The notes below the pieces were generated by a model. The model saw only the letters and a program-made list of their open reading frames with translations. It was not told the origin of the DNA and made no database searches. The translations under genes were made by a program, and so were the position numbers. This document shows, piece after piece, positions 36,338 to 61,964 of a stretch of DNA of 64,000 nucleotides (the first letter of the stretch is position 1; the number at the start of each line of letters is the position of its first letter). The stretch lies in assembly GCF_026151205.1 (NCBI RefSeq), contig NC_087078.1:17687118-17751117 (forward strand). Direction: 5' to 3'. Origin of the DNA: Bolinopsis microptera (lineage: Eukaryota > Ctenophora > Tentaculata > Lobata > Bolinopsidae).

Positions 36338-36766
36338 ATGTTCTTGGCGGCATGCGATGTGATGTACGTTAGTATATCAGTAAATAAATATAATAAAATC
36401 AACATACGTGAGACTGCTCAGGAGACTAATAGCTCTATAAGAAGAGCTTTGTTTTGGCATGATTGGTTGTTTTGCATTTTTGAGCCAAATGTGGGAATTG
36501 GGCATGGCACCAGCTCCGACTTTGCAACCCATTCAAAGTTATTGATCGACTATGTAAATCATGTTTCAGAAATTATTAGGCTGAATTCTCGTATAGCGTA
36601 TGGTCTTGACATTATTTATGGAATTTTGATTCATGCCCCTCCAGTCTCCACAAGAAAATCTCTGATAATTGAACTGCTCATTTCTTCCTTTTCGGATTGT
36701 CTGTTATGCTCTGTTAAATCAAATTTTGTGTTTCGGAAATTCTGCCCAAGACACACCAAGTATTGA
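36338..36766 (+). other. Open frame of 142 codons, unrecognised
   Basis: An uninterrupted frame containing a hydrophobic/aromatic segment (FWHDWLFCIF) followed by a plausible helical region (HSKLLIDYVNHVSEIIRLN). It begins after a possible acceptor (GCTCAG). Copy A lacks about 150 bp of it because of the rearrangement near 1345-2100. It could be an exon fragment captured in the block, or chance. I assign no function. Confidence 0.2.
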
Positions 36767-37400
36767 ATACGTTTTTAAGAGAGTACAATGCTTAAGCATC
36801 CATCAACAGGTTACCAAGTTGGTGAATTGTACAATGTACAATGTACATTCACAACTTTAACTGTACTGGCACGTGTGCATGTATTCAAATTGATCACGTG
36901 ACAACGAAAACATAATCACGTGACCTTGTGAGAAATTCAGAAGTAAGGCTGCAGATAAGCTTATGCCTTACCATATTCAATTACATTTATTCAATTACAT
37001 TCATTCAATCTTATTGAGGCACAGTTTATATCTCCCGCGAAAGCACACTCCCCAAATTGTGTGCATTGTAGTAACTTCTTTCAAACTTCATGAATCGAGA
37101 TAAAATCTTTTTTTAATCTTTTTTTTGAGGTGCCTCGAAAATGATCTTAACGGATTCCCCGTTCAATTTTGGTCGATCCACGTTATCTTAGTGCAAAATA
37201 AAGAAAGTTATAAGACTATTTCATACGTATCAAATTGGATGTGCTTTTGCGTGAGATATAGCACACGCCTTTTATTAGTTGCTTGAGGAGGGTTTACCCT
37301 GATTTTTTGTGAAACTTGATTTCGAGATAGCAGTTTTTTGCCAAATCACCTCAATATGCTCAAAGCCATGCTTTGGGATGCTCGCTCCTCCAGGGTTCAA

Positions 37401-37637
37401 TCAGGTTTTCAGATAAAATGTTTTGAAAACATTATTTTTTAACTCCTTTGAGTTTCTCAGAATATCTGCTATAGCGGTTGAACTGTCCAAAATGACCTTG
37501 ACAGGCCTGACAAGGTCACTACCATGATGTTTCCATTCTTTCTGCCTTGACTTGAAGAAGGGTTTCTCTTCAATCGATATGAGCACTCTCTTCATCGTGA
37601 ATTGAAGATCTTTACCAGCTGCTGCCCTCACAGGCAC
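37401..37637 (-). pseudogene. LINE ORF1-like fragment
   Basis: A 78-codon frame whose C-terminal half reads RPVKVILDSSTAIADILRNS followed by KELKN. The pattern RPVKV-x(6-10)-ADILRNSKxLK is typical of the C-terminal part of ORF1/gag-like proteins of LINE elements. The upstream part is basic (KRVLISIEEKPFF, RQKEWKHHG). No reverse transcriptase lies in a consistent position, so I read it as an old fragment. The same fragment in copy A (about 2890-3105) is broken by indels. Confidence 0.45.
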
Positions 37638-39240
37638 AAAAAAGCACTATTAGCAATTGTGTCCTTTACCCTCCTACACAATTTGAACATTTTCGTGGCT
37701 AAACCAGTGTTGCAAAGTAAAAATTGTGTCTTCATTTGTAATTTTTTTTGTGTAAATTAATTTATCACTTGTACACTTATTACAAAGTGTTTTATTATAA
37801 TAAAACCACTTCTGTGAAATGGTTATTTTGACTATAAATATTTGAACTAAATATGAATTGATTGTGGGTACAAAATAAAATGTTGTCTTTTTAAATTTTG
37901 TTATACTGCTTCTTCCAATCCAAATATCAATTATCATAAGGGTTTTTGACTTAGTTAATTTTCTGTCTGAGTCATCCTTGATACGTACCTCTGAAGGCAG
38001 AGCTCCCGTTTCCGAGCTCGTATTGCAAAGGGGAGGCCTGCCTTTTGAGATCGCATTACAAGGGGGAACCCTCGAGTCCAAAATCGTATATCGAAGGGTA
38101 GGTGCGGACTTCGAAAACCGAAAAAATATTTGACAATTTTTCCCCCAAAATTGTTAGATACCTAAATAAAAAAGTTGGCCCTTTTTGGCCCCTTGCCCGC
38201 TCCCTCTTTTTCACTATTGTCACCATAAAGTGAGAATGCTTTCAGCTAGGAACTTCAAATTTTCTAGACACATTTGGTTTGATAATTGAAGTGCCTTCCC
38301 AAAATCCCGATGATCTCGGCACTTAATCAGTGATTTCGTCACCCAATCAGTGATCTCATAGGGAGCTATTCAGTAGCGGGCAATAATGAGCCCCATTAGG
38401 CGGTACCGAGCATGTTGGGGGATGACGATCTGGTCACTTTGAGTGAATACTGATAGCGACGTTCCTTAAAACCGAAGAAATTCGCTTTATAGCGCTTCGG
38501 TTGCTGTCCTATGTTATATTGAAATAGTTCTTATTATTTCAATTATCTAATCTGTTTATATTTTAGCAATGTATATGAGATCTACCCAGTGGTAAGTATT
38601 TCAGTTTAAGTATGTATTTGTTGACTCACACCTTTTCGTTCGTTGATTTCACCCTGCTAATTGTTATGGATTCATTTATATGATTTATATGACTTGTATG
38701 TTTGATATATTTTCCTTTCAGATTGTTTATCATCATCAAGTCGTTTTATTCCAATAACATCCTATAAGCAGTTTCCAACCAATCAGGGCATTGATTGAGT
38801 GAAGATATCGCTGATTAAGTGCTGGATCACGTATCTGCAAGATCTCAAAAGGGTCATAACTCGGTTAAATTGTGAACAACCAACTTGAAATTTTGGGAAA
38901 GCACTTTAATTATCAAACCAGATGTGTCTAGAAACTTTGAAGTTCCTAACTGAAAGCGTTCTCACCTTATGGTGACAACAGTGAAAAAAAGGGAGTGGCG
39001 TACCAAACCCACTTTTTAAAAATTTTTTAAGAGAGGCTGGACCAAGATGGCCCATGAAAGGATAGCATTGAGATGCTCTGCCTACCTCTGGGGTGTGGCA
39101 ATCCTGTGAAAGGTTGCTGGTGAAATCAGAGTGAATGGTGGAGGTTGGACTAAAGAGTGACATGGTTCAAAGTAATACGTTTAAATGCCAGCTAAGTTTG
39201 GAAGTGTAAACAGAGACGAGACAGCAGATGAGTTAGTACT

Positions 39241-39487
39241 CTAAGTCACCCCAGTCTGATCCAGCTCTTCCGGCATGTTTAAGCGTTTGGTGCAGTTTGC
39301 GAAATTGACAATTGTGGTGATGTGTCGGTTGTCGAATATGTCATTGACAGAGAGGTAGTAGTCCTGGAAATATTGACCTCTAATTTGGGCAATAGCCGAA
39401 ACCCACTGTAAATAATTAAATTTGACGAAACTTTCGGGAAATCTAAGTTTGACCCATATCTATAATCTCTGAAATTTCTGTGCAATT
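39241..39487 (-). pseudogene. Possible calponin-homology-like terminal exon, broken
   Basis: Following a likely acceptor (TTCTTAG at 39488-39494) the minus strand reads, after one in-frame stop, WVKLRFPESFVKFNYLQW and later VNDIFDNRHITTIVNF, ending in TAG at 39241. The pattern F-x2-VNDIFDNRHITTIVNFANCTKRL resembles the last helices of a calponin-homology domain (the stretch usually reading VDL(Y/F)EGKN followed by a helix). In copy A (4730-4981) the start of the exon is open but a one-base loss breaks it later, so the two copies are disrupted at different places. No upstream exons were found. The family call is tentative. Confidence 0.3.
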
Positions 39488-40217
39488 CTAAGAAGAATTA
39501 CGTGAGTTATTATATTATTAAAGGGTTGCGTGTTGGCCACCCTGTATATACAACGTTCCATATGCCAAATCTAAATTCGATAATAAACTTCATATTAGTG
39601 CTGCGTGCTGATTAATGTCCTGGTATGGGAATCAATCCACCCACTAGTGATGATAATATATTTTTGTGTTCGGCTGGTTTAAGTTGCAGCCAGCAGTAAA
39701 AGAATTGAAAATAAATTCCCTTTACATATTTCCGATCAGAACATTTTCGGTGATATTGACTGTCATGTTGATATTATTTAATTGCAAATTGATAAAATTT
39801 GTTATTGTATTTAAAGATGATGTAGAGTTTTTAATCATTAATATGACGTACTAGAATTATAGCTACATCGGTAATATGGCCCATTAAATGTTGTATGTAT
39901 GCGCGTTCAAAGGACCATGAACCTGCAAGTTCTTTTTATTTGTTAGTAGAGCATTTTGGGCTATACTGTGTACTGGTTCTAACAAGTTTATTATCGGATG
40001 TTTATTTATATTTATTATGATATTATTATTCATTTCACATAGCCATGTGTATACGCGTACTGCGTGATGCGCTTGTTTCACAAGTAGACTTCGGCGGTCG
40101 CACGCTACTGCAAGCGAAAGGGCTTTGGCGTTAGAGCAAATTATTCATTGTAACGGCAATAAAATTTAAATTTTGTTTTCCTGAAAAATGTTGTCTTCCT
40201 TAGTTTATGATAGCAAG

Positions 40218-40360
40218 CACAGGAGGGCCAAAGTGCAAAGAAACTGCTGCTAACTGCTGCTCATTGCTGTTAACTGGCAACTGCTGCTAACTGCTGCAAA
40301 TGGCGCGCGACAGCAGCAGTCTAGTTAGCAGCAGTTTCTTTGCACTTTGGCCCTCCTGTG
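40218..40360. mobile_element. 143-bp foldback repeat (MITE-like)
   Basis: Near-perfect inverted termini of more than 35 bp: CACAGGAGGGCCAAAGTGC at the left, its reverse complement at the right, each continuing inward into AAAGAAACTGCTGCTAACT. The centre holds further GCTGCTAACT units. The whole would fold into one long hairpin. No clear target-site duplication is visible beyond the palindrome, so whether it moved as a transposon is uncertain. A corrupted copy lies at about 5720-5855. Confidence 0.7.
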
Positions 40361-41358
40361 AGTCGAGCTTCGTGATTATGATTTGGGTTTGGGTTGGAAT
40401 TAAAGTTTATGTAAAACCGTTTTAATTACCTGAAAACCCATAATTAAAACCATAAAAACCATGAAGTCACGTAATAATTTTGGGCAAGCAAATTAGTAAA
40501 AGCCCTATATAATACGCGTTACTGTAACTATTGTATTTAAAATCAAACTAATTGAATTAACCCAGGAAACTTTACCATTTATTGGTTTGTGGCTGCGCTG
40601 GGGTCGATCTCCGAAATTAAAAGAAATAGATCTAGTAGGGTGGATGGTTTTTTAATCGTATTTATGGAATTGGTACCGTTGTAAAGCTTACATTATGACA
40701 GTTCAGATGGCGAAAGTTTTATCGAAAATGGACCAGTCATTGTTCTGGAAATAACAATAATATCAATTGAGTAAACAATAATATCTATGACCAATTTAAC
40801 CATATTAAGAAATGTGGTCGACGATCCAGTATTGAGCATATGTGCAATTGTGCGAGTACAGTATTCTAATTGCCCCCTTCGAGCAGCTAAGGTGCGTCTT
40901 ACTAGCAGTCATGTGACCGAGATCACGTGATAACACCTTTAACTAACTTATAGCCCTGAGGATCAATTGGTACAATGTGTATTGAGGCAAATTGGTCGGG
41001 GTATGTTTTATTATATAATATCAGTATTTACACTGAAACATTCAATAGCTTTCCTTAGCTGTTGGAACAGTGAAAGACCAAAATATTAGATGTTAACCCT
41101 GAGCAAATTGTAGCTTGTAGTTGTACAATTAATATAATCAATAATACTACATACTACCTTGTCGGACTTTATTTAAACGGACTTTAGTTCATAGTTGGAT
41201 GCTAGAAGCCCAAGTTTACAATTTACCTCGGAAATTTATCTCGTACCGTTTTAAAACCAGATCTCGGAGAAAGCTTCACCTTAGAGTATTTTAAACCTAA
41301 TTCTCGGTCAGACGTTTTACAATCTCCGAACAGTGTGACTATAATTATTTGGCCAGTT

Positions 41359-42335
41359 GGTAGATCACCGACCGGCTATAAGCCGGCTACTAACCGGCTA
41401 TAAGCCGGCTTATAGCCGGCTACAATTTTTATAGCCGGCTATAAGCCGGCTTATAGCCGGTTAGTAGCCGCTTACATTTGATGTTGAGCGACGGCTATTA
41501 GCCGGTTATAAGCCTGCTATTAGCCGTTTTGGTATTAAAAGTGGTTATAAGCCGGCTATAAGCCGGCTTATAGCCGGTTAGTAGCCGCTTACATTTGTTG
41601 TTGAGCGACGGCTATTAGCCGGTTATAAGCCTGCTATTAGCCGTTTTGGTATTAAAAGTGGTTATGTTATAAGCCGGCTATAAGCCGGCTATAAGCCGGT
41701 TATAAGATATTAACTCAACTATGCATCGTACTGAACGATAGTCAGGAGCCGGCTATAAGAAATTCAGTGAAAACGGCTATTAGCCGGTTATAAGCCGGCT
41801 ATTAGCCGTTTAGGTATCGAAAGTGGTTATAAGCCGGCTATAAGCCGGTTATAAGATATTAACTCAGTTCAGTACGATGAAGTTAAGTTAATATCTTATA
41901 GCCGGCTTATAGCCGGCTTATAACCACTTTCGATACCTAAACGGCTAATAGCCGGCTTATAACCGGCTAATAGCCGTTTTCGCTGAATTTCTTATAGCCG
42001 GCTCCTGACTATCGTTCAGTACGATGAAGTTGAGTTAATATCTTATAACCGGCTTATAGCCGGCTTATAGCCGGCTTATAACCACTTTCGATACCTAAAC
42101 GGCTAATAGCCGGCTTTTAACCGGCTAATAGCCGTTTTCACTGAATTTCTTATAGCCGATACCTAAACGGCTAATAGCCGGCTTATAACCGGCTTATAGC
42201 CGTCGCTCAACAACAAATGTAAGCGGCTACTAACCGGCTATAAGCCGGCTTATAGCCGGCTATAAAAATTGTAGCCGGCTATAAGCCGGTTTATAGCCGG
42301 CTTATAACCGGCTTATAGCCGGTCGGTGATCTACC
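41359..42335. repeat. Palindromic GCCGG/TTATA array, left arm
   Basis: About 1 kb built from GGCTATAAGCC, GGCTTATAGCC and GGCTATTAGCC units that are themselves palindromic. Larger inverted sub-units contain CGTACTGAACGATAGTCAGG and TATCGAAAGTGGTTATAAG. The whole block is bounded by TTGGTAGATCACCGACCGG at the left and its reverse complement at the right, so it forms a foldback unit within the transposon arm. No coding capacity. Confidence 0.9.
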
Positions 42336-42986
42336 AATTTCCCCTTCATAGTTGGATGCTAAAAGCCCAAGTGTTCATTTTAATGTCCGTTCATTTCAAT
42401 ATCCGTTCAAATTTTGGAGGACATCCTAAGTAGACGGACCCTTCCGAGTAGTACAACCTATTTCTTGGGCAGCAGTTTGAGTTTAGCTCGTACCGTTTTA
42501 AAACCAGATCTTGGAGCAGAGTTCACCTTAGAGTATTTGAAACCTAGTTCCCGGGCAGCAGTTCAGCACTTTTAATCAGAACCCACGAATTTATTTTTCC
42601 TGGTATTACCATTCACCAATTAGTGTTAAATTCATGCCATATTAAAACCAACGGGGTGTTATGATTATGTAACTTGCGGTTTCATTGAAGAAGTGGCTTT
42701 GAAACAATTTGCACTGCAATAGCCCCTAAGCTTATTTAACAATATTCCTCATGAAGGCCAAGGTTAGCTTGCTCAATGGACACTTTTAACAAATTTTTCA
42801 GGCCTCAGGGTAACTTCATGATTACTGTAACTGAAATTCCATGTTCTGCAAAATATTGATTGATGTGCCTAAAATCCATGCCCCAAAATTACCATCACAT
42901 ATTAGTCTCAATATTCGATAATCGTATAGCTATAAGTACAGCAGCGCCATCAATAACACCAATTTTATAATTTTTTGAGCACCACC

Positions 42987-45900
42987 ATGAAACTTGAAGA
43001 TTTTGTTAAACCAGATCGTTTAAATTCATTTTGTCGTCCAACTCTGCTACGTCATGTTTTGTCACATTTACTTTTTCTCGTCGAAGAAGCCAATATAGGT
43101 AGGAAGAAAAAACTTTCGATTTTTGAGTTCTACCGTCCTGTTGCTATTGACCTGCTTGCTTTGTACGATGTCACAGAAAAGTCCGAAATTCGTAGAATTG
43201 CACCTGGTATTGCTAAGTAAGTACCATATTTTTATGTTCTCATATTTGGCGTCAATATACTATTCGTTGATATTTAAGTGCTTTTTCCGATCTGTTTTAT
43301 TCATTCCGTTTCTATTTATTTATGCAGTTTGTATTTAGCGTTCATATCCGGTGTGGATAATTGCCAATCGTGATTCGTGTGACTGATATTCATAGTCCAT
43401 TCTAGTTAATATAATGCTATTTATAATTATATTTCTTATAAAATTGGTTACGCTATTTGTAATTTGAAAACTATTGCAGGAAAATAAGAACCATTGATAC
43501 AAAACTCCGAGATCTCTCAGCTAAGGCGGCACAGTCCAGGATGGACAAGTTCACTAACAGTCTAAATGAACCTTTTGATGTCCTACCCAAAAAGAAACTT
43601 GAAGTTGAAGCCCCTGTGCAAGTTAATCTCATCACTCCTGCTCTCAGCGATGTTACTACATCAGATTTATTGCCCGTAAGCACTTTTCAATACGAATACA
43701 TAATTAGTTGTTAAAATAGCCTAACTGAGATAATATTGATATAATATCATTGACCGTCAAATGATCAATTTAATCTCTGCGCCGACATTGTGATAATTGA
43801 TAAAGGGAGCTGTTGTAATGAACAATTTTTAGAACACAACCTAACTTTTATTTTCACATAAAAGTATATTTAAATGCCCTGGCCGTCTTTAATAAAATCA
43901 CGGACAACAATACAATTACTTGTTAACGACAGGTTGTTTATCTAAGCGATGACTCAGCAAGTCAACATAGCTACATTGACCCAAGAGATGAAAAGGATGC
44001 TGATTTTCATCCAGCCTCGTCGAGTTCCTCTACTAGTGCTTCGGAAACACCGAAAATCACGGTTTCCACTTACCTGAACTGCAGTCTGGATGGTATGGCA
44101 GCTGAGTTAGAAAGAAATTCTGCCGGCTTGGAGTCGACGGCACGCACGTTAACATCATTTTGCAGGGAACTATACAAAGGGGGTCATCTACAGCAGCCAT
44201 TTGTTGTTCCCCGGTCAAAACTTCAAAGCACATGTAAAAGAGATGGAAAGAAGAGGCTTGAAGCACTGTCAACTCGTTCTCCGTTAGGTTTGTACATATA
44301 ATGTCTTAACGTTAATCAGCTTAGTTTTTGTCTTTGACTTTTGGACATATTTATTACTACAAAAAACTTTTAACTTTACTATTAGAATGAGTATGCTATA
44401 AATTAAAACTTGTTATTTTGCAGCAATATTCTTTGACGGAAAGGAGGATAAGAATATAAGGATGAGCCAAAAAGATGAAAAAGGTCACATACGACATAGT
44501 GTGGGGAAACGGAGCCACTACTCTGTGGTAGAACAGCCTGGTGCGATCCCTCTTGGGATGTTTGTTCCAGAACAATCGACTGGTAAGCATTACTATTATT
44601 TAGATTAAACTTCGATTGAAAGTACGTTTAAAATTGTTCTTCTCCAGATTAGTGGTATAATGAACAGTTTAATGTTACAATTATATGTCTCGTTCCTGCA
44701 TCAGATTTCCGGAAAGGCTCTGCAGTTACACTGTAACATTTATGCGGATTCTTTGTTGATTACTTAATGTTTATATAGGTAGAGGCATTGCTGTTGGATT
44801 GTATGACTACTTCCTAAGTCGTGGCATAACCACGGACAATACATTGTCTATAGGTGGAGACAACACTAGTGTTAATTCTGGCTACTTGGTAAGCAAATAA
44901 CTCATTTTTCATTTACGATTAAAAACTTTTTATGTTATAGCTGAGCATTGGACACTATCAAACAGCGACACAACCATTTCGTTCTCATAAAAATGTTGAA
45001 ATAAATCATTTTCAGGGAGGTGCTTTTCGAGAGTTTGAGGTTCTGCTACATCGAGCACTCCAAAGAGCCCTGTGCCTCTTACACCAAGTGGAACTCCCCC
45101 TAAGGAAATTGTACTTTCACTATGGAGGATCGACCAAGGGTGTGTTATTTACTTTAAAATTGAAGCTCTGTAGTCTTTTAGAATAACAGTTCAAAATTTC
45201 CACAATATTAAACATTCCTTACTGTAACAATTGCAAGGATTTCCTTGATAACTAAACGAATAAATTATAATTGTGATTAATATCATCATCGTTAATTCTT
45301 ACTTTCTAATACTTACACTTAAAGTAAAGTATCTATATTATGTATCATTACAGCACCTGGTGACTTTGACGGACCTATGGGGCCTTTCATTATGTCCAAC
45401 GAACTTTGGCTGAAACCAGTTAGAGTTTTCAAAACGATCGGTAAAGATTTTCCTCGACTGCCCCAAGAGGTGATATATAATTTAAATTGTTATAACTAAT
45501 GAATAATCTTATTTTTGGATAGTTAGTACGTTTCTAATTTGCTGATAAGATAGTGCTGAACCGTTTTCCAGTTCCATGTTTGTCAACCATTGCGATAATT
45601 CTCGACGAAATCATAGAGCTCTTCCCAAGCAATATTAAATTAATTGCCATATTTTTTTCAGACATTGAGTAAGATGTCGAATGATGGCAAGTTGATGTAT
45701 AAGTATTGCATCACTGTCGAGACTGGTTTACACGACGACTTCGTGTACAATACAATCGGAAACTGCTCTACTGCTCGGTGGATTACGTTTGGAGCCAGAA
45801 TCCTCCGATTTTACATATCGGGGGATCTTTCCTACAACACCCATATTTCTGAGTGTTTAGAGAGGATGGTGAACTTTATTGTAAATGTATATTACAAGGT

Positions 45901-47386
45901 ACAAATCAGAATATAGTGCTGGCACTTGTGAATTGCTTGCTAATTTTTATTGAAATAAATGATTTTAGAATATTGATTGAAAATGTACAGCATATGTTTT
46001 CTTTGTACCAAAGCTGCTCAGAGTTTCTATTAAATCGGACTTAAATAATTACTACTAGCATTTGATGGTTCTAATTCAATAGGTGTTTGCCAACATTAAG
46101 ATGAGGAGCAGCTTAACAGACGCCCCAGCCCATCTTTTCGATCAGATACGACTCACATGGAAACACTGCGAACCAGCAGAGCGTAAGGTCGTTTTTGAGT
46201 CGATACAACAGAACGGCTATATGGCTCATCCCGAGAGCGTGATACTCGCCATGCTAGGTATGAATGACAACGAATAGTGAATATTATTTAAAAACTATAA
46301 TACATGAAGTATAAGCCGCTCGTTTCCTTGCCGTGTGATCATCGCATTTATGTCTTTATCTGTTATATCTCCAAATAACATCATAGTAATAAGAGTATAA
46401 TATCATCATAGCAGTAAATATTCAACTTATATTCTGTACTTACGTCCGAATTCTTGCAGTTATAAATAAAATTAATAAATGCACAATTGCTCCTAGAATC
46501 GCTTGAATTTAACACATTATTCAACCCGCAAGATTTTACATCTATAATAGTATAGATATACTATACCTATAGCATATTTTTACCCAGGCGATCACAACAA
46601 AGACCATCGAGAGAAAGGAATAGGGATTGTAAAGAATATTCGTCAATCAGAGGAGTGGGACAAGCACGTCGAAAGAGAGTCTGGTGTTCAGCGACCTAGA
46701 CGAATCCGACATTTCAAGTCCCCAAAGATATTCTTCGGATGTAAAACATATATGGAGATGGTCAGACTGAAGGTTGTGGTGAGTTTATAGATTATGTATA
46801 ATGATAGCAAAGTCTGGCAAACTAAAAGTGAGAACTCTTCGTGGTCATTCTACTGAACTAGTAGAATGCAGAATTTGTTAACTAATTTGCTTTACCAACT
46901 CTGTCAAATATTCCACGGGACTCGGTCCCTGTTTAGTGTTTAGCTTATAGTTATATTATACTAGTATTACCATTTACCGGTCAAATAAATAATTTTCCCT
47001 TCAATCAGAAAGAGAACGGTCCGGTTCCAAAGAAGATAATCTTCGAAACGTACGACAATGAGTGGGAGCCAGTAACTTGCCCTCCCCTCATCTCCAAAAT
47101 GTCAACTGCTGACCTGGAAAAGATAAGGGAAGCCCCCCTGGTTTGTAAGATTCCTTGCCATAGTCAATCTGTGGAACACACTGTTGCACTTGTGTCCCAC
47201 GCTGCTCAACGACGTCGGACTGAAGACACTCAGCTGATGAGTGTCCTTCAGATAGGAGCTGCACGGAAAGAGTTTTCGGGTAGAGTAACGCACAAGCGGT
47301 ACAGAACTGAAACAGACTCGACTCCAAAGTCGAAGAAAGTTAAAGATACGCCCTTTAACAGGGAACTATTTAAGGATTTCGATTAA
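42987..47386 (+). CDS. Transposase, uncharacterised animal family, 11 exons, intact
   Basis: Exons: 42987-43216, 43480-43675, 43933-44287, 44424-44582, 44779-44888, 45016-45139, 45354-45469, 45662-45898, 46083-46257, 46588-46778, 47009-47386. All have GT-AG borders and matching phases; the joined frame is 2271 nt, 756 residues plus stop. Start is the first ATG (MKLEDFVKP). Conserved landmarks: an AIFFDGKEDK strand (candidate first catalytic Asp), a GGDNTSVNSG motif (candidate second Asp), LLHQVELPLRKLY, STKAPGDFDGPMG, STARWITFGARILRFYIS, QNGYMAHPES and, after a charged insertion, PCHSQSVEHTVALV (candidate catalytic Glu). The C-terminus is basic (KSKKVK), a likely nuclear signal. From memory this order matches a large group of animal proteins deposited as uncharacterised. 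The RNase H-like DDE fold and transposase role are inferred from the motifs plus the flanking inverted repeats and target duplication. Confidence 0.85.
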
Positions 47387-48708
47387 TAGACTTCAAATTA
47401 GTATAATCTATAAACTGAAAGTGGATGGTAATGAATTGTTGATAAATAACTATAAGTACTTTTGGAAAATAGTATTATTTATATTAAAATACTGTAATGA
47501 AAATCGAAGTTTTACAAATATATGAATTATGAAAAAAGAAAGTTCTGTTTTTAATTTTGTCATATAAGTATTAAGTGTTGGCGAAAAAATCATGGTACAT
47601 TTTGTTGTAAAAAATTGGAACTTCGGTAACGCTAACAGTAATTATGAAATTGCCCTGAAAAATGTGTTAAAAGTGTCCATTGAGCAAGCTCACCCTCATG
47701 AGGAATATTGTTAAATAAGCTTAGGGGCTATTGCAGTGCAAATTGTTTCAAAGCCACTTGTTCAATTAACCGCAAGTTACATAATCATAACACCCCGTTG
47801 GGTCTAATATGGCATGAATTTAACACTAATTGGTAAATGGTAATACCAGGAAAAATAAATTTGTGGGTTCTGATTAATAGTATCTCATAACATAGTCATA
47901 GTATAATTTAGTATTAACTAGTTGCAGTGTTCAATGCAGATCGAAAAATTAAATTCAAAACCAAGTAGTATGAATATGTCATGGTTTATTCAATATAACA
48001 GTAGTAGTACAATATGAATAATAATTTAATTTAAAGCGATACGAGCTAAACTGCTGCCCGTAATTAGGCTTCAAATACTCTAAGGTGAACTCTGCTCCAA
48101 GATCTGGTTTTAAAACGGTACGATCTATACTGCTGCCCAAGAGTTAGGTTCCAAATACTCTAAGGTGAACTATGCTCAAAGATTTGGTTTTAAAACGGTA
48201 CAATCCGAACAGTGTGACTATAATTTCACAATACAGTATAATATAGTCGCACTGTTCAGAGATTGTAGCCGGCTTATAACCACTTTCGATACCTAAACGG
48301 CTATTAGCCGGTTATAAGCCGGCTATTAGCCGTTTAGGTATCGAAAGTGGTTATAAGCCGGCTATAAGCCGGCTATAAGCCGCAGAGGCACATATTAGGT
48401 GCGGTAAAAAAATTGAAATTATGCAGTACCTCACCTGACTATAAAGGTTAAATGTGCGGTAAGGTGCGGTAAATTTTTACCAATTATGCGGCAAATGTGC
48501 GGCGATTTTTTCGAAATTTGTGCGGGAATTGTGCGGTTTTCTTTTGCATTTTCTCAAGGACTTTGGAAATTCTAAACGTATAACCGCCGCTCTTATCAAA
48601 AATAGGTCTGTTTATGTGTTACTGAGGGTGTAGTTCTTTACTAAGACCATGATTGAACCTAATATTGAGATTCAGTTATCTGAGAACAGTGACTTGATCT
48701 GGTAGAGA

Positions 48709-48843
48709 TCAGGAGACAGTTATTTGAAGACGCCTCTTGATAGAGTCGATCAGATCCCATGCAGGTATCTTCTGTTTCTTGTGTGGTGAGCTTGATGATG
48801 GGTCACTGTCTGTAGCTGTTCGTTTCTTTAGGAAACGGTCCAT
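48709..48843 (-). pseudogene. hAT-type transposase first-exon remnant
   Basis: About 44 codons starting MDRFLKKRTATDS and continuing SSSSPHKKQKIPAWDL. Starts of the form MDxFLKK followed by a basic, serine-rich stretch are frequent at the N-terminus of hAT-derived proteins. The frame ends with TGA after RLQITVS, with no following exon, so it is a remnant left after internal deletion. It may supply a transcript start only. Confidence 0.45.
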
Positions 48844-48944
48844 GACGTTGTGATGTGATATAGAGTAATCATATGATGTGGTGAAGTTACGAATGATAAC
48901 TGATACACTATAATCGAAGTACGGTAACGACGAGGGTTCCATAA

Positions 48945-49325
48945 CGGCCTGGGTCACGGTCCCGAAAGGGCCTGGGTCACGGTCCCGAAAGGGCCTGGGT
49001 AACGGTCCCGAAAGGGCCTGGGTCACGGTCCCGAAAAGGCCTGGGTCACGTGATAACCGGGTCACGTGGCCTAGGCATGAGTTCCAAAAGGGCCTGAGTC
49101 ACGGTCCCGAAAGGGCCTGGGTCAGGGTCCCGAAAGGGCCTGGGTCACGTGGTAACTGGGTCAAGTGGCCTAGGTATGAGTTCCAAAAGGGCCTGGGTCA
49201 CGGTCCCGAAAGGGCCTGGGTCAGGGTCCCGAAAGGGCCTGGGTCAGGGTCCCGAAAGGGCCTGGGTCACGGTCCCGAAAGGGCCTGGGTCAGGGTCCCG
49301 AAAGGGCCTGAGTCACGGTCCTAAA
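48945..49325 (+). repeat. ~23-bp GC-rich minisatellite
   Basis: About fifteen copies of a unit reading GGGCCTGGGTCACGGTCCC plus GAAA, with variants carrying GTCAGGG in place of GTCACGG, and two longer spacer forms containing CACGTGGTAACTGGGTCA. It is inside the nested hAT-like element. The Gly/Pro-rich frames it gives on both strands are artefacts of the repeat. Confidence 0.92.
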
Positions 49326-50934
49326 AGAGCCCGACTTTTAAAATATTTTGGTTTTTACACTCGAAAATCTTAACGCGAAAATTTCAAAATTATGCGAAAT
49401 TACGCGAAAATTCTAGATTATGCGGAAATATGCAGAAAATTACAAAATGTGCGGAAAACAATAAATTATGCGGAAATGTGCGGAAAACGGTAAATTGTGC
49501 GATCCCGCACCCATCGCACCTAATATGTGCCTCTGAATTAAGCCGGTTATAAGATATTAACTCAACTTCATCGTACTGAACGATAGTCAGGAGCCGGCTA
49601 TAAGAAATTCAGCGAAAACGGCTATTAGCCGGTTATAAGCCGGCTATTAGCCGTTTAGGTATCGAAAGTGGTTATAAGCCGGCTATAAGATATTAACTTA
49701 ACTTCATCGTACTGAACTGAGTTAATATCTTATAACCGGCTTATAGCCGGCTTATAACCACTTTCGATACCTAAACGGCTAATAGCCGGCTTATAACCGG
49801 CTAATAGCCGTTTTCACTGAATTTCTTATAGCCGGCTCCTGACTATCGTTCAGTACGATGCATAGTTGAGTTAATATCTTATAACCGGCTTATAACATAA
49901 CCACTTTTAATACCAAAACGGCTAATAGCAGGCTTATAACCGGCTAATAGCCGTCGCTCAACAACAAATGTAAGCGGCTACTAACCGGCTATAAGCCGGC
50001 TTATAGCCGGCTTATAACCACTTTTAATACCAAAACGGCTAATAGCAGGCTTATAACCGGCTAATAGCCGTCGCTCAACATCAAATGTAAGCGGCTACTA
50101 ACCGGCTATAAGCCGGCTTATAGCCGGCTATAAAAATTGTAGCCGGCTATAAGCCGGCTTATAGCCGGTTAGTAGCCGGCTTATAGCCGGTCGGTGATCT
50201 ACCAACTGGCCAAATAATTATAGTCACACTGTTCGGAGATTGTAAAACGTCTGACCGAGAATTAGGTTTAAAATACTCTAAGGTGAAGCTTTCTCCGAGA
50301 TCTGGTTTTAAAACGGTACGAGATAAATTTCCGAGGTAAATTGTAAACTTGGGCTTCTAGCATCCAACTATGAACTAAAGTCCGTTTAAATAAAGTCCGA
50401 CAAGGTAGTATGTAGTATTATTGATTATATTAAATGTACAACTACAAGCTACAATTTGCTCAGGGTTAACATCTAATATTTTGGTCTTTCACTGTTCCAA
50501 CAGCTAAGGAAAGCTATTGAATGTTTCAGTGTAAATACTGATATTATATAATAAAACATACCCCGACCAATTTATCTCAATACACATTGTACCAATTGAT
50601 CCTCAGGGCTATAAGTTAGTTAAAGGTGTTATCACGTGATCTCGGTCACATGACTGCTAGTAAGACGCACCTTAGCTGCTCGAAGGGGGCAATTAGAATA
50701 CTGTACTCGCACAATTGCACATATGCTCAATACTGGATCGTCGACCACATTTCTTAATATGGTTAAATTGGTCATAGATATTATTGTTTACTCAATTGAT
50801 ATTATTGTTATTTCCAGAACAATGACTGGTCCATTTTCGATAAAACTTTCGCCATCTGAACTGTCATAATGTAAGCTTTACAACGGTACCAATTCCATAA
50901 ATACGATTAAAAAACCATCCACCCTAAGATCTAG

Positions 50935-53467
50935 ATCTAGCTAGACTTCCGTTTTTTGTTGACCATTGTTATAACAGTTAATAGACTTGCCCGACCCGTC
51001 GCTTTCTTCGAGAAGAACGGGTGATACTCGTAAAATATTTGTTCCAAATATTATACGGGCGAAATAGTTGGTCGCGCGCAGTACGCCGCGCTTTTGGTGT
51101 TGACCATTGGTGGCAGGTACTTTTTGTCCTATTACGTCACGGCGCAGTACTGCAAATACACTACACACTGATAAGGCTTCTCTCAGATCACAGTTTATGT
51201 TAGAAATCAAACCTAATTAGATCATATTATTATTAAGACTCAATCTTCAAGTTCAAGCCTTCGGCATCATTGTAAAGGATTTGTAGAAGAACATTTCGGC
51301 AGCAACTGAAAGTAATTTATTTTAATTGATCAAAGAGGTTGAAACTCGGTTTATCAATATCATGGATGGTTTGAGACATGACTGTCATGATGCATGATTG
51401 ATGATGCATTACTGATTTTACTACCAAAACTTGACCCACAATTATGCGACTGTTTACAATATTGAATTTGAATATTAAGCCTACTGCAGTGTGACTGAAT
51501 TGTATTTGTAAGCCATATATTCCAAAAATTCTAATATTTCCTCACCTATATATAGTGTATGTTTTACAGTTTAAGGAGAAGGAGACCATTAACATAGAGT
51601 ATAAATTATTCCCAGCAGTACATTTTCTTCCAGAAATAACAAGGGCACGACATTCTGGCATAGTAAAATGAGACTGAGAGTCAGAGAAGAAAGAACATTC
51701 TGAGTAACTTTGTCAGACGTCAGTAGCCGTTTTCATGTCAGAGAGATCCTTTGGCGCACTATCGGTATCACACAATGGCAGGTCAGTCCATCAGTAACTG
51801 AAAATAAAACCCATTACGTCAGTATTGCTATTAGGAGCAAATGTTTAGATACAAACTGGTGTTATTGGGAGGGTTGGTATTCGTTCGTATTTCTGTCGAT
51901 AAATGGTAACATTTTCATGTACCATTTCTCGACAAAAATGGGCAATTTGTGCGTGTACAGTGTACATGGTTAATGTTTAATTTTAAGTGGAATGATACGC
52001 CTATGTGCAGTGTTCACCCTACAGCGTGTAAAGGGATGTGTGTAAAGTATGATTATTTATAGATTACCGTAATAAAGTAATGACAAAGTAAGCGATCGTG
52101 TACATCTCGTTATAACATTTCGGTCATGAAGTTGAAATATTACAACAATATATTATTTTATTTTCCCACTTTTCTTGGAGAGAATTCAGGTACGTGTGCT
52201 AATTGTACATAATTTTGATAGGAGCTTTAACGAAAATATAATACCAAATTGGTCGCCAAATTGAATATGGGATACTCAGGAGGATTATTGGGACAAAAGT
52301 GGAACATTTGTTACATCGGTTCTAGACATGAAGTGATTCCCAAACTTGGTTTAAGTATTCCTATAGGACCAAAATTAACTCTTTCCGACCAATTTTGAAC
52401 CATTCTGAGCACTTTGAGGATAATGTTTATGTTTGTTCATTTTTGTTCATTCCATAAACCTGGGTAATGTTAGGCGATTTTTGATGGTTCCTAGGTCTAG
52501 TTTTTAACTATATCCATCTTAGAAAACCGAATTGAGGCTTCCCAGCACTCAAATACAGCCAATACTTCGATGTCCCCATGTTCCAAAAATCTGCAGATAC
52601 TCGGGACGATTATTGAGACGAAATTGGCACATTGGTTACATCGGTGCTAGACATGCAGTGATTCCCAAACTTGGTTTGAGTAGTCCTATGACCAATATTA
52701 ACTCTTTCCGACCAATTTTGAACAATTCTGAGCACTTTGAGGATAATGTTCATGTTTGTTCATTTCCGTTCATTCCATGAACATGGGTAATGTTATGCGA
52801 CCTTTGATGGGCACTGACAACACCAAATAATAGCTAATGGAATGATACCAACTGAATAGCACTTGCATCTTAAATGACCACGAACAGCCTCCGTGAAACG
52901 AAGTAGCTTTATCCGCCAGTAGTCTTTATTTGAGCGGAGAAAGAAGCTTCATACCAAGCTGTGTAGCAACTATGATTGTATACATGTACCGGTTTACTAT
53001 GTACTAAATGTATATATGTGGTACTATAGTACTATAATACTATATATAATACTATGTCTATACTTGTAGTTGTAATAATAGAACTAGAGACAAGCGCTCA
53101 GATCATGCGAGTAAAACTTTAACGGGTGATACTCGTAAAATATTTGTTCCAAAGGACCGTCGACGAGTCCAACTCGGCGCGCGTCCTGGTAGGTTATAAA
53201 CCTACAAGTAAAACTGATTTACCGAGTCAGACAAGGATATTCTAACACCATTGGTGAGCTAAGTAAGCTACTCAACGTACAAAACCACAGTTATCCAGAA
53301 GTCGGAACTTTTACATTGTAAAGTAATCTATAATACTAATAGGGCCGTATGAATCTCACATTTCGTCCTCGTACTGCGTTCTTTATCGTTAAACTTAAAG
53401 TTTTATCGCTGCATGTTTTTCCCATCTCGTAGTCGTACTAGTCGTCGAAGCTTGGAATGAATAAATA
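50935..53467. other. Non-coding flank with short repeats
   Basis: No supportable gene. Features seen: a 33-bp sequence (AACGGGTGATACTCG followed by TAAAATATTTGTTCCAAA) occurs identically at 51016-51048 and 53121-53153; and a tandem pair with 325-bp period starts at 52271 and 52596. The end of copy B of the duplicated block lies at about 51762. Confidence 0.6.
52271..52810 (+). repeat. Diverged tandem duplication, 325-bp period
   Basis: GATACTC, TGGTTACATCGG/TTGTTACATCGG, GTGATTCCCAAACTTGG, AACTCTTTCCGACCAATTTT and GAGCACTTTGAGGATAATG occur in the same order in both halves (first half about 52271-52490, second about 52596-52810). The halves differ by scattered substitutions. Not coding. Confidence 0.8.
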
Positions 53468-55180
53468 ATGCATCTGAAATTTCTGGTTTTACAGCTGCTT
53501 CTCTTAACGGTAAGTTGTTTATATACGCTGAGCGTGTCTAGTTCAGTAAGGGAGCGGGCATTTTAATTTTTAAATATATTGTAGCATCAGAGATGCTGTA
53601 ACCATTTAATTTTAATTGGTTATAACAATTTAATCGGTAACAACAGCTACGCACGAATCTATACTTCATATTACTCATTACCCACACAGGAGTACATACA
53701 CTGCAGTGGAATCGGGGAGATACAGTTGAGTTGGTATCAAGATTTTACAAGCTGCGGAGACGAGTGTGATCTTTACTTCAAGAAATTCGTTATCCAGGAT
53801 GAAGATGGTAACGAATTTCTCAACGTAGAAGAAACAGATGAAACCGATAACACTAATTTTGTCTCTTTCCTTAACGTGGAGCAGCTTGATGAAGTTATTC
53901 CAGTAAACATCCACGCTGGTAGGAGTATAACAATATCATTTGAGGTATGGGATAAAGATATAGGTGCTACTGCTGATGATTATGAAAGAAGCATGAGGAA
54001 TTTGGTCGTACCATTTTCAGGCTTGAGATCAGATGGAACCTGGGAGTCTAAATTCTTTATAAGTGACACTAACGCTGCGGGTGACGACAAAAGAGCAATT
54101 CTTTTGATATATTATAGGATATTGAGCTGTGATAGCCACTTCACTGGATTAAGCTGTAACTACTGCGTAGCTAACTACTACGGAACAGAGTGTAGTAGAT
54201 ACTGCAAACCTGCGCCGGATAACTACACTTGCAACCAAACTACAGGAGAGAAGATCTGTGTGGAGGGCAAGAAGGGCGAAGACTGTGATGAATGCTTAAA
54301 TAGCAACAAAGAAGGACAGAAGTGCGAAAATTGCGTAGAATACCAATACGGAGAAAATTGTTCAATCTATTGTAAGCCAAATAATGAGCACTATAATATG
54401 TGCACAGAATTTGGTCACAAGATTTGTGTGGACAATTCAACCAGTGTGGCAAACAAATGCAGAAAAGGTAAGATAAGAACGCTATCTTTAGAATAACACA
54501 TATCTGATATCAGCCTCACACATTAATTGTAATCGGCTGTTATTTTAATCTCTTCATACTTTTATGTTTTAGGTACAATAACATTGATAACCGAAGCATT
54601 TAGCTTCCTTTTACTTTCAAAAGATTTTTCGTAAGATAGTGCTACACCGATGTTGAATGAAATGGTATTATCGAGTTATTAACGAATTTAAATGGTGGAT
54701 ATTTTACGTCAAGATGTCCATCCATTCTGTTTCGAATAGGCGATATTCCGGAAAAGTATTAAATATTTCTGCTTTTATAGCTGTAGTACATTCATAATTT
54801 TCGATGGCATAGTGATAAAGAATTATACTTATTTCTCAGGCAACGCAGCCCAACATAATATAGGAGTTTGGATATCATCAGGGGTGGCAGCGATTTTCTT
54901 CATAACATCAATAATGGCCGGATTGTATATCCTACGTAGAAAGCAGGAAAATTTCTCTGCCGGAAATGTGATCTACGTTAATAATGCACCCAACCCCGCT
55001 GAAGCAATCCCTACGACTGGACACAACTACGAAAATGTTGTTCTCAGAGTAACCTCGCCCACCAATGGTCATCTCTACAACGATGTCGTGCTACAAACTG
55101 AACCTGCTCTAGATGATCACGAATTACCATATTATGACTACGCACGAATCGAAGATGTGGTGAGGCACAACATTAAATGA
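53468..55180 (+). CDS. Type I membrane protein with DSL-like domains
   Basis: Three exons: 53468-53509, 53690-54467, 54840-55180, with GT-AG borders, phases 0 and 1, and 386 residues. Residues 1-14 (MHLKFLVLQLLLLT) form the core of a signal peptide. Residues about 20-155 resemble the N-terminal C2-like domain of Delta/Serrate/Lag-2 ligands, followed by the canonical IYYRILSCDSHF lead-in. A DSL-like module (about 161-216) contains CVANYYGTECSRYC and EKICVEGKKGEDC; the usual Gly-Trp is Gly-Lys. A second, partial module (about 227-271) has CVEYQYGENCSIYC. There are no EGF repeats of the classical spacing. A membrane helix at about 282-304 is followed by RRK and an 80-residue tail with VIYVNN, NYENVV, LYNDVV and YYDYARI. 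It is probably a cell-surface ligand or receptor. The tail tyrosines suggest intracellular signalling, which ordinary Delta ligands lack; this is inference. Confidence 0.82.
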
Positions 55181-58397: not shown

Positions 58398-61300
58398 TTA
58401 AATTTCTAAAAGTACGAAATTTGAGTTGTCCCAGTCCTTGTCATCCGGTTTATGTGCTTGTGCAGTAAGCACATGCTTGTTGACTGTAGACTTGAATGAA
58501 TTTAGGAATTTGTCTTGTAGGCAAGTGGTGACATATTTTATGTCCTTGTTAATAATGTTGACTGTTTGGTTATATAACTTAGGCCCAATGTAAGAAATGC
58601 TCTTGTCTGAATTACATAAACGGTTAAATGGTACTGCAAAGAACTCAGGTTCTCTTCTAGGTGCGTTTAAGTTTGAAACAGTGAACATTCTTATAATATT
58701 TGGTGGTGCAGTGTTAGAATAAACTTTGTGCATTAAGCATAATATACATTTAGCTATCACGTTCGGTAAAGCTAATACTTCTAGTTTATTGAAAATTTCC
58801 TTTGTGTGTGAAGGTGTGCTATTCAGATCTTTGTCATAAAAATAGCGGTGGTATTGGTTATCTGCAGCGCGAATGCCCTTTTTCTGGGCCGAGAAGACTC
58901 TTTTAACGGAGTTTAGCGATCTTGTTCCCCAAACTGTGCAGCAGTGCCAGTAGTACAAGTGAGACTGAACAAAGCTGTTGTATATCAACTTGAGTGCTTT
59001 GTTAGGTACTGAGCCTTTGAGTTTGTAGAGAATACCCGCATTTCTAGATACTTTAGTGGCTAAATGTCTAATGTGGTGGGCCCAATTTAGCTTAGTATCA
59101 ATGATCACGCCAAGAAACTTTTCGTGATAACTTTGCTTTAGTCGCTCACCTCCCATGTAGATTTCTATATCCTTAGTTTTTTTATTTGTAAAGATCATAT
59201 ATTTAGTTTTGCTAGCATTTAATTTAAGCCCGTTATTAGTAGCCCAATCAATTATCAAAGTCAGAATCTCATTCACCAATGCATTAAGTTGTTCAAATGT
59301 ATCTGTACTTATTATTAGGTTTGCGTCGTCAGCGAAATAAATATGTTTAGCTAAATTACTAATCTGAGGAAGGTCGTTGATGTAGATTATGAACAGAATT
59401 GGTCCGAGAATGGAGCCCTGTGGTACTCCGTAGTTAAGTTTGAGGTGAGAGGACTTGCAGTTGTTGACGCTCACGTATTGCTCTCTATCGGTTAGATATG
59501 AGTGAAACCAAGATAAAGCCAACCCCCGAACTCCATAGTGCTCAAGTTTTCTCAGAAGAATACTGCTGTCAACCATGTCAAAGGCCTTGCTGTAGTCCAA
59601 TAGAAGCAGTGCTGTGACCTGCTTTTTTTCTAGTGCCCTGTGAATATGGTTTTGGGCTTCTAGTAAAGCATGTTCGCAGCTGTGCCCAGCCTGAAATCCG
59701 TATTGAGAGTCAAATAGGATTTTCTCTGTCTTTAAGTGATCTAATAGTCGCGCTTGCATAATTTTTTCAAAGATTTTTGAGAAACATGAGAGTAGTGAGA
59801 TAGGTCGATAATTTGAAACTTCAGCACGTGACCCACCTTTGTGAAGTGGAACTACTTTCGCGATTTTCAATTTATGCGGAAACTTCCCCTGATGTAGAGA
59901 CGCAGAGACTAGGCAGCTAAGCACTGGTGCAAGTATATTGCTCACTTTTTTCAGGGGAAGTATACTCATATCAGAAGTCGACTTAATCTTCAAACCCTTA
60001 ACTATTTCAATTATTTCTGATGCGGACGAATCTTCTAGATTCATGCTCCGCTGGCATTTGCTATCTTGAGTTTCTGTTACGATAGTCCTGCCCTCAGAGC
60101 ATACGAGACCATTTTCTCTCTTAAGAGTCTCACTCTCAGCTATATTGCAGAAATAGTCATTGAAGCTATTCGCAATTTGCTGAGAATCTGTTATCTCGCT
60201 CCCATTATAGTTAATTTTGTTTATCTTAATTTTGCCTTTTTTCTTTCTGTTTAACAAGTTATTAACCATTTGCCATTGTTTTCTGCTGTCGCTAGAATAT
60301 TTTGTAAAGTACGCGTTGTAATATTTGTTTTTGGCCTTATCCACGTGTTTATTCACAAATTTCTTCATTTTCTTGTACCTAATATCATTTTCAGTGGTCG
60401 GGTTTGTGACAAAATCTTCATAAAATTTATTTTTGCGATCACATGCGCACCGTAACCATTCTTGGATCCACGGCTTTGTGTTTTTACGGCGGCCTGGTTT
60501 ACTCTTTTTTGCCTTAATTGGGAAATTTCGGTCGTATAGTTCACTATATTTTTTATCGAAAGCCTCAAATTTTTCATCTACAGAATCATAGTTATTAACC
60601 AAGTTCCAGTCTACCGCAGAAATGTCGTTCTCGAACTTTTGGATACTGTCATCGTTTATTACTCGAGAAGACATCTCTGTTGTATCTTCTTGAAGTTTAC
60701 AACTGAGCCTATTCTGATCAACCATGATTGTGACAAAAGTTGCCAAGTGGTCAGAGATTGACTCAGAAATTACTCCCGATTTTGTAACAGCGTGGCAATT
60801 ATTGACGAAAATATGGTCAATGATTGTCGCACTGTGATCTGTGACTCTAGTTGGTCTAGATATCACAGGAGCGAACCCATGTTCTGCTAGAGTGTCCACA
60901 TACTTAGTGACAGAGTCTATTCTCCCGTAATCTAGTAGGTCTATGTTAGTATCACCGGCCAGTATGATATTTTTGTTTCGATGTCTTGCTAAGTTACGGA
61001 GGAAAATTTTTAATTGTTCAAGGAAACCATTCAAATCCCCACTTGGAGAGGTAAGTTCTGCAACCAAGAATTCTCCTATCTTAGGATTATCGTGGCAACA
61101 TAGAGCGCTCTTAACGTTTATGTCAGATAATTCACATAGTTTTTTGTTAACATATATAACTAATCCTCCACCACGATTTGACGCTCTGGCGGGAGTCTGA
61201 ACATACGGTGGATAGAAACCGTCTAGTTCGAGCTCCTCTCCCTGAAAAGGCAAACATTCCGTGTTACAATTTGTTTCATTGAAGCAGAGAACGTCGTATT

Positions 61301-61958
61301 TTGTGTATTGATCTATATTCTCCCGAAATTCTTCAATGTTCCCATTAAGTGACCTAACGTTTAGCGAGAAAAGTTTTAATTCATACTCCTTCGTATTTTT
61401 TATTGCTTTCGCGGTATAGTATTTGCAGTTATTTAGAAGACTAGACGTTGTTTCCCATGGATTCAAATCAGCATCAGTATCATCACGATCACCTATGTGA
61501 TTTGATAGGTGGTCGCGATTAAAGGGGTTAAACCTAATAGTGTTACTGAGATTTATCATGTGAAGCTGTCTAATGGAGTCATCATATGCTGGGAAAATTT
61601 TTCTCAAGCATTCTTTGCAGCCTGTTGAGCCAGCAGAACATCTTGTGTGGGATAGGTTGTCACAGTAGCAACATTTGGTCATTTGTCTTACATTCCCAAT
61701 TTTTTTGCAAGTGTGACATTTTTCTCGTTTATTGGAGACTGGGATTTGTATAGGCCGTGATGGTAATAGAGGCATGACGGCGTCCACTGGAAGAATTTCT
61801 GAAATGCAGCTGTAGCAAGACCATTCTCCAGTAAGTTCAGTTATGTCGCTAGGTGTTAGGTGAGCACATTTTGGGTGATATGTCATATAACAGATACTAC
61901 AAGTGATGCTTATCTTGTGTGAGACTAGGCGCTTTGTACAGGCCTTACACTCATACAG
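58398..61958 (-). CDS. LINE ORF2: PHD finger, endonuclease, reverse transcriptase
   Basis: The frame is open from the TAG at 61961-61959 to the stop at 58398, 1186 codons. The only early ATG (61886) falls inside the first zinc finger, so translation must begin upstream at a non-ATG codon or by reinitiation. Numbering from that Met: a PHD-type finger begins upstream (ECKACTK) and ends at 24-27 (WSCYSC); a second Cys/His cluster at 57-93 (CHTC, CCYC, H80, C83, CKEC); an APE-type endonuclease at about 170-390 with LNVRSL, FNET, AGDTNID and ISDH; reverse transcriptase at about 675-930 with NYRPISLLS, LLDYSKAFD (Asp 764), YGVPQGSILGP and FADD (851-854). The C-terminal part carries a Cys-containing region (CILCLMHK). 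Role: target nicking and reverse transcription of the LINE RNA. The frame is fully open, so this copy may be recent. Confidence 0.92.
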   Translation of the reverse strand: MYECKACTKRLVSHKISITCSICYMTYHPKCAHLTPSDITELTGEWSCYSCISEILPVDAVMPLLPSRPIQIPVSNKREKCHTCKKIGNVRQMTKCCYCDNLSHTRCSAGSTGCKECLRKIFPAYDDSIRQLHMINLSNTIRFNPFNRDHLSNHIGDRDDTDADLNPWETTSSLLNNCKYYTAKAIKNTKEYELKLFSLNVRSLNGNIEEFRENIDQYTKYDVLCFNETNCNTECLPFQGEELELDGFYPPYVQTPARASNRGGGLVIYVNKKLCELSDINVKSALCCHDNPKIGEFLVAELTSPSGDLNGFLEQLKIFLRNLARHRNKNIILAGDTNIDLLDYGRIDSVTKYVDTLAEHGFAPVISRPTRVTDHSATIIDHIFVNNCHAVTKSGVISESISDHLATFVTIMVDQNRLSCKLQEDTTEMSSRVINDDSIQKFENDISAVDWNLVNNYDSVDEKFEAFDKKYSELYDRNFPIKAKKSKPGRRKNTKPWIQEWLRCACDRKNKFYEDFVTNPTTENDIRYKKMKKFVNKHVDKAKNKYYNAYFTKYSSDSRKQWQMVNNLLNRKKKGKIKINKINYNGSEITDSQQIANSFNDYFCNIAESETLKRENGLVCSEGRTIVTETQDSKCQRSMNLEDSSASEIIEIVKGLKIKSTSDMSILPLKKVSNILAPVLSCLVSASLHQGKFPHKLKIAKVVPLHKGGSRAEVSNYRPISLLSCFSKIFEKIMQARLLDHLKTEKILFDSQYGFQAGHSCEHALLEAQNHIHRALEKKQVTALLLLDYSKAFDMVDSSILLRKLEHYGVRGLALSWFHSYLTDREQYVSVNNCKSSHLKLNYGVPQGSILGPILFIIYINDLPQISNLAKHIYFADDANLIISTDTFEQLNALVNEILTLIIDWATNNGLKLNASKTKYMIFTNKKTKDIEIYMGGERLKQSYHEKFLGVIIDTKLNWAHHIRHLATKVSRNAGILYKLKGSVPNKALKLIYNSFVQSHLYYWHCCTVWGTRSLNSVKRVFSAQKKGIRAADNQYHRYFYDKDLNSTPSHTKEIFNKLEVLALPNVIAKCILCLMHKVYSNTAPPNIIRMFTVSNLNAPRREPEFFAVPFNRLCNSDKSISYIGPKLYNQTVNIINKDIKYVTTCLQDKFLNSFKSTVNKHVLTAQAHKPDDKDWDNSNFVLLEI

Positions 61959-61964
61959 CTATTT

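Follow-up and report, generated by a model that had tools for sequence, protein, structure and literature searches.

We analyzed a 64,000-nt window of the Bolinopsis microptera genome (contig NC_087078.1, positions 17,687,118 to 17,751,117 of the forward strand) and describe a 10,291-bp element at window positions 40636-50926. The element is likely a complete class II transposon, probably autonomous, and its single gene would encode a 756-aa transposase that, as judged from sequence comparison, is of the DDE (RNase H-like) type and belongs to a divergent lineage related to hAT. This reading is built on observations made directly in the genome: defined ends, target duplications, empty sites, end pairs in many copies, an intact and constrained gene, and a hAT-like block that spans the second candidate catalytic Asp (D2) and a CxxH motif. 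The family to which the element belongs resembles Mutator-like elements (MULEs) on the outside, with long arms and 8- or 9-bp duplications, and resembles hAT in that one block of the core. Full-text literature searches returned no published description that we recognized as this element.

The initial annotation, made from the letters of the window alone, had described matching TAGGG termini, a perfect 8-bp target duplication, inverted arms of 2-3 kb and one open 11-exon gene, and the structure at 40628-50934 is real as first described. The duplication, AGATCTAG, occupies 40628-40635 on the left and 50927-50934 on the right; inside its two copies the element begins TAGGGTGG and finishes CCACCCTA, giving the termini TAGGG...CCCTA at 40636 and 50926. 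Self-comparison delimited a left arm of ~2.1 kb (40636-42757, plus strand) and a right arm of ~3.2 kb (47693-50926, minus strand). The outer 1049 nt of the arms are 100% alike (40636-41684 and 49878-50926); inward of these, pairing continues as interrupted blocks as far as 42757 and 47693, and the inner blocks contain many GGCTATAAGCC-type repeats. The right arm also holds a nested insert of 1.15 kb (48383-49535) that is not part of the arm proper. Its inverted ends, CAGAGGCACATATTAGGTGCG, are what we take to be typical hAT-like termini, and it is packed with 23-bp GGGCCTGGGTCACGGTCCCGAAA-type tandem repeats. Because the same ends recur pairwise across the genome with duplications, and because a copy on contig C11 has an intact gene whose 756-aa product is almost the same, the element is not a chance arrangement.

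The gene lies on the plus strand between the arms. Its 11 predicted exons all have GT-AG borders and together encode 756 aa without an internal stop, ending in TAA at 47384-47386. Exon 1, which contains the start codon (42987-43216), and exons 2 (43480-43675) and 3 (43933-44287) are followed by exon 4 (44424-44582), with the motif FDGKED and a candidate first catalytic Asp at either D265 (44435-44437) or D269 (44447-44449). Exon 5 (44779-44888) carries GGDNTS and the putative second catalytic Asp, D341 (44859-44861), and exon 6 (45016-45139) carries C370-x-x-H373 (45073-45084) and VELPLR. The GPMG motif falls in exon 7 (45354-45469), ARWIT in exon 8 (45662-45898), where W470 (45779-45781) may correspond to the RW motif of hAT, and NGYMAHP in exon 9 (46083-46257). 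Exon 10 (46588-46778) precedes exon 11 (47009-47386), in which PCHSQSVEH includes a candidate catalytic Glu, E687 (47174-47176).

An alignment of four family rows, with 30-91% identity to the first row, has the blocks (G/C)D(N/G)TSxNxG, CxLHx(V/I)ELP(L/F)R, ARWIT, NxYxAHP, AMLGD and P(C/S)HxQSVE in common; FDG(K/R)xD is also conserved, in the three of the four rows that extend to it. The candidate D, D, CxxH, W and E are all conserved in this alignment. Comparison of exons 4-11 between the two subfamilies described below gave dN 0.046 against dS 0.232 (dN/dS 0.20); the protein is therefore constrained by purifying selection.

Copies were sought in the whole assembly (264.65 Mb in 232 contigs). 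The left 601 nt of the element gave at least 43 matches genome-wide (best 40 of 74 candidates), many of them as facing pairs. The coding part has three closest copies, on C7 (the window), C11 and C12, with 98-100% DNA identity, and a second subfamily of ten coding copies with 84-85% DNA identity to the window gene. These 13 close coding copies exclude a noisy duplicate within the window and two short fragments on C9. An intact 756-aa product is encoded by two of the three closest copies. The third, on C12, is broken by stops, and its exons 5, 6 and 10 differ in length; its right end is present and its left arm absent, just 403 nt upstream of the start codon being matched within the 2.1 kb read. 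In the second subfamily, the copy at C3:1937 reads open through exons 4-11, the part covered by that reading.

An intact gene between inverted repeats could also be a host gene or passenger moved by a transposase encoded elsewhere. Many end pairs are too closely spaced to hold the gene, and the protein found no match in any of the ten shorter TAGGG pairs read (L059-L066, L068, L070), as would suit such a passenger. Against it, paired ends spaced 10-14 kb apart enclose every one of the ten second-subfamily copies together with those on C7 and C11, making 12 of the 13 close coding copies, and each subfamily keeps its own ends, TAGGG or TAGTG, with its own version of the gene. The product itself carries transposase-like motifs, and the open reading frame (ORF) listing holds no other ORF of at least 130 aa in the window's element. 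We therefore regard a passenger as very improbable.

More distant coding relatives, at 65% and ~30% identity, are present in the same genome, and a query from the ~30% group gave 115 matches at E<=1. None of the places that it matched overlaps any of the 18 DUF4371 places in the genome. Matches at ~30% to the block from the first Asp to CxxH occur in long open frames at C1:5440251 (498 aa), C2:13728921 (308 aa) and C5:20273355 (467 aa), which may be intronless distant relatives and, if so, could help structural work; another distant copy (L075, C3:1621300-1624700) is split by a reverse transcriptase frame like that of a long interspersed nuclear element (LINE). Searches for family relatives beyond this genome yielded no motif-pattern match in viral_contigs, where 73 candidate stretches gave 0 confirmed, and 0 confirmed among 33 candidate stretches in genome_contigs; a hAT motif pattern had 0 matches in viral_contigs.

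The initial annotation had suggested looking for other copies that combine TAGGG ends with 8-bp duplications. Such copies exist, although a length of exactly 8 bp proved too narrow. We read 22 end pairs, 13 with TAGGG and nine with TAGTG ends, leaving the loci with one good end (L057/58, L069, L073, L074) outside the count. Seven pairs have an 8-bp target site duplication (TSD), ten a 9-bp TSD and one a 10-bp TSD with a mismatch; one is unreadable and three lack a clean duplication. Thus a clean 8- or 9-bp duplication flanks 17 of the 22. Both lengths occur with both types of end: among TAGGG pairs, 8 bp in five and 9 bp in five, with one unreadable in a G run (L062) and none in two (L067, L068); among TAGTG pairs, 8 bp in two, 9 bp in five and 10 bp with one mismatch in one, L071 being not clean. 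The flanks of four of the ten second-subfamily coding copies were read, and showed 8 bp in one and 9 bp in three.

Empty sites confirm these lengths, 8 bp once and 9 bp twice. The flanks of ten TAGGG elements were joined with one copy of the duplication and compared with the genome, the best 40 of 5295 candidates being scored. For at least three of the ten, the joined flanks occur uninterrupted elsewhere, a lower bound because only 40 of the 5295 candidates were scored. The empty site of L066 (9 bp) matches over 251/251 nt at 100%, at 11 places among the matches listed; that of L059 (8 bp) lies at C12:1555113-1555364 (98% over 252 nt), and that of L061 (9 bp) at C10:6105525-6105778 (97% over 254 nt). 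Since query and target spans are equally long at these sites, both 8- and 9-bp duplications are real. The TAGTG pair at C4:2505154-2530288 sits in a 21-bp satellite, and removal of 9 bp, not 8 or 10, restores the satellite. We conclude that target duplications in the family measure either 8 or 9 bp.

Two of the TAGTG pairs are unusually far apart: the C4 pair just mentioned (25 kb, 9-bp duplication) and C13:13429365-13451574 (22 kb, 10-bp duplication with one mismatch). Their spacing suggests very large members or elements holding nested inserts. A short sequence, CCTGTCATTCCGC, itself part of a repeat, adjoins L060, L064 and the end at C1:13326245 (L086); its presence beside three copies is a hint of a target or neighborhood preference. 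The target preference nTnnnnAn, given for Hermes in PMC10368747, fits three of the seven 8-bp duplications.

The element thus has the outer features of a class II (DDE type) transposon: inverted repeats at both ends, target duplications of 8 or 9 bp, and empty sites. A cut-and-paste transposase had been proposed for it at the outset. The transposase part of this claim is supported by a gene that travels with defined ends (12 of 13 copies), by clean duplications and at least three empty sites, by purifying selection and by the conserved candidate residues; its cut-and-paste part stays a proposal, no excision having been seen.

We compared the protein with known families to place it among transposases. 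Pfam at E<=10 returned 0 families for the whole product, for the 260 aa at its N terminus and for two distant relatives, a result in which the filters of HMMER may hide weak matches. Searches of the PDB by sequence found no meaningful relative, only one irrelevant match per search (E 1.4; E 1.6). The suggested database search of the 756-residue product therefore ended in no named family in Pfam or PDB, while profile comparison revealed a core that is hAT-like in one block. The hAT reference was L079, a single transposase of this genome identified as hAT by its PF05699 match (2.6e-10); it matches Hermes weakly (E 0.04-0.06), at CSSH, CPTRW and ASER. With hhalign, the family aligned to this hAT protein with a P of 1.4e-4, a probability of 52-53% and a score of 39.9, with D2 and CxxH aligned. 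In controls, none of 100 shuffles exceeded 27.9, and reversing the sequence gave 17.4. The D2-CxxH segment alone scored 37.5, a value matched by 0 of 60 shuffles. By this comparison with one hAT sequence, the catalytic core is related to hAT through the D2-G-x-S block and CxxH; DUF4371-type hAT proteins and Hermes are among the closest known systems.

Several results weigh against a hAT assignment. PF05699, like every other Pfam family, was unmatched at E<=10, and Pfam detected no BED finger. In the RW segment, ARW is aligned with TRW of the hAT protein at a score that 8 of 60 shuffles equal or exceed; in the E segment, IPCHSQSVEH is aligned with IPVTVASAER, and there 56 of 60 shuffles do as well. 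These RW and (S)xER motifs lie at the positions expected of hAT without significant scores, and one block, D2-CxxH, is significant. Aligned globally, the core as a whole fails to match hAT (score 3.3). The family alignment, at four rows, is of low diversity, and the hAT alignment was formed by entering a single sequence twice. No clean duplication flanks three of the 22 end pairs (L067 and L068; in L071 the best is 6 of 9 letters). The outer structure also departs from hAT, for which PMC3942097 gives lengths of 2.5-5 kb, terminal inverted repeats (TIRs) of 10-25 bp and TSDs of 8 bp: full elements of this family are 10-14 kb long, their inverted arms are kilobase-sized, and their TSD is 8 or 9 bp where that of hAT is strictly 8 bp. 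Some family copies do share the 8-bp TSD. The groups hAT5, hAT6 and hAT7, described in PMC12730594, have 5-, 6- and 7-bp TSDs; TSD length can therefore vary within hAT, and our family departs from the hAT norm as they do, though at 8/9 bp rather than at their lengths. Because the TSD, TIR, size and PF05699 features examined were unlike those of hAT, we file the family as hAT-related, and not as a proven hAT member. In favor of hAT, its TAGGG and TAGTG ends agree with the hAT end rule.

The same outer structure fits a MULE better than a hAT element, and the element could belong to the MULE superfamily, as does Muta1 of Aedes aegypti. MULEs have TIRs >100 bp and TSDs of 8-10 bp, both found here; Muta1 in particular, as presented in PMC5225508, duplicates 8 or 9 bp of its target, bears tandem repeats in the subterminal part of TIRs that are >100 bp long, has many non-autonomous derivatives, and carries the CxxH and W that it has in common with hAT. 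Our family shares its TSD lengths, long repeat-bearing TIRs, many non-autonomous derivatives, CxxH and W. The proteins differ: the family product has 756 aa, whereas those in the Muta1 paper have 416-554 residues (PMC5225508), and the product has no MULE match in Pfam. As a further control we assembled IS256-type proteins (87 stretches found, 80 loci used, with 42 open frames between 330 and 520 aa long, of which 27 remained after removal of near-duplicates); two of the 27 were checked, and both contain PF00872 together with PF10551, the MULE domain. Against the profile of these 27, the family gave a probability of 0.6% and a score of 20.5, at a place away from the catalytic motifs, versus 39.9 at D2-CxxH for the single hAT protein. 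This control is weak, and counts among the points that temper our hAT-related reading, for the L079 hAT protein is also unmatched by the profile (score 15.4); because the hAT sequence fails too, it shows how far the family stands from IS256 and has little bearing on eukaryotic MULEs. MULE-type structure is thus present, and a MULE-type transposase was found neither by Pfam nor by the IS256 profile. We consider membership in the MULE superfamily improbable.

A lineage of its own superfamily rank among the C/DxxH transposases is a rather doubtful alternative, and it overlaps the hAT-related reading if its nearest relative is hAT. The C/DxxH signature is common to five superfamilies, hAT, MULE, P, Kolobok and Dada, according to PMC10045372 and PMC3706591. 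The family also has a distinct motif set (ELPLR, GPxG, NxYxAHP and PCHxQSVE), no Pfam family, and a mixture of 8/9-bp TSDs with kilobase-long arms. Against separate rank stands the hAT-like D2-CxxH block, in a comparison made with hAT and not with P, Kolobok or Dada. By Pfam, the one means of comparison used here, the product has no match to Zisupton/KDZ, P, Kolobok or Dada. Galileo, a DNA transposon of the P superfamily, shares very long, internally repetitive TIRs with our family (PMC3573991 and PMC3688188); its P-type transposase has a THAP domain, and no such Pfam match was found in the family product.

If the product is a hAT-related transposase, the 756-aa protein would bind the repeat-rich arms, and DDE chemistry by D265 or D269, D341 and E687 would cut at the TAGGG ends. 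CxxH and the tryptophan of the RW motif (W470) may position the flanking DNA and the end of the transposon, a role that has been argued for in Hermes and Muta1. The ends would then be joined to the two target strands at points separated by 8 or 9 bp, and gap repair would produce the duplication. Cleavage by hAT transposases leaves hairpins on the flanks; a cut-and-paste order with such hairpins may apply here as well.

Elsewhere in the window, 2109-16930 aligns directly to 36628-51758 and includes a second element at 6126-16142. Substitutions in this duplicate are at most 1.5% per kb over the first 4 kb and 6.5-9%, with many indels, from ~6 kb onward. The noise is even across the element and its downstream flank, and the duplicate is therefore probably unpolished sequence or an assembly artefact; we rejected the element at 6126-16142 as an independent copy and excluded it when counting copies. 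By eye, 58398-63986 (minus strand) is LINE-like, with a 1162-aa endonuclease/reverse transcriptase-like ORF, a 187-aa ORF and an AlkB-like ORF of 318 aa, and 53726-54496 (plus strand) is an open frame resembling a piece of a Delta/DSL-EGF protein.

It is a tentative possibility that this family represents a lineage of superfamily rank that links hAT with MULE, with a hAT-like core, MULE-like kilobase-long repeat arms and a relaxed 8/9-bp spacing. If so, a large set of unnamed, 'uncharacterized' animal proteins would gain a mobile-element identity. Proteins with this motif order have no Pfam match and, if they are as common in animal databases as the initial annotation stated, are carried in gene sets as unknown genes. 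With its ends defined and with empty sites and intact copies identified, the family becomes an annotated transposon that can be repeat-masked, and the ends together with the transposase form a candidate pair for an activity test. With a hAT-like core and a spacing of 8 or 9 bp, what sets the length of the target duplication would become testable in one enzyme.

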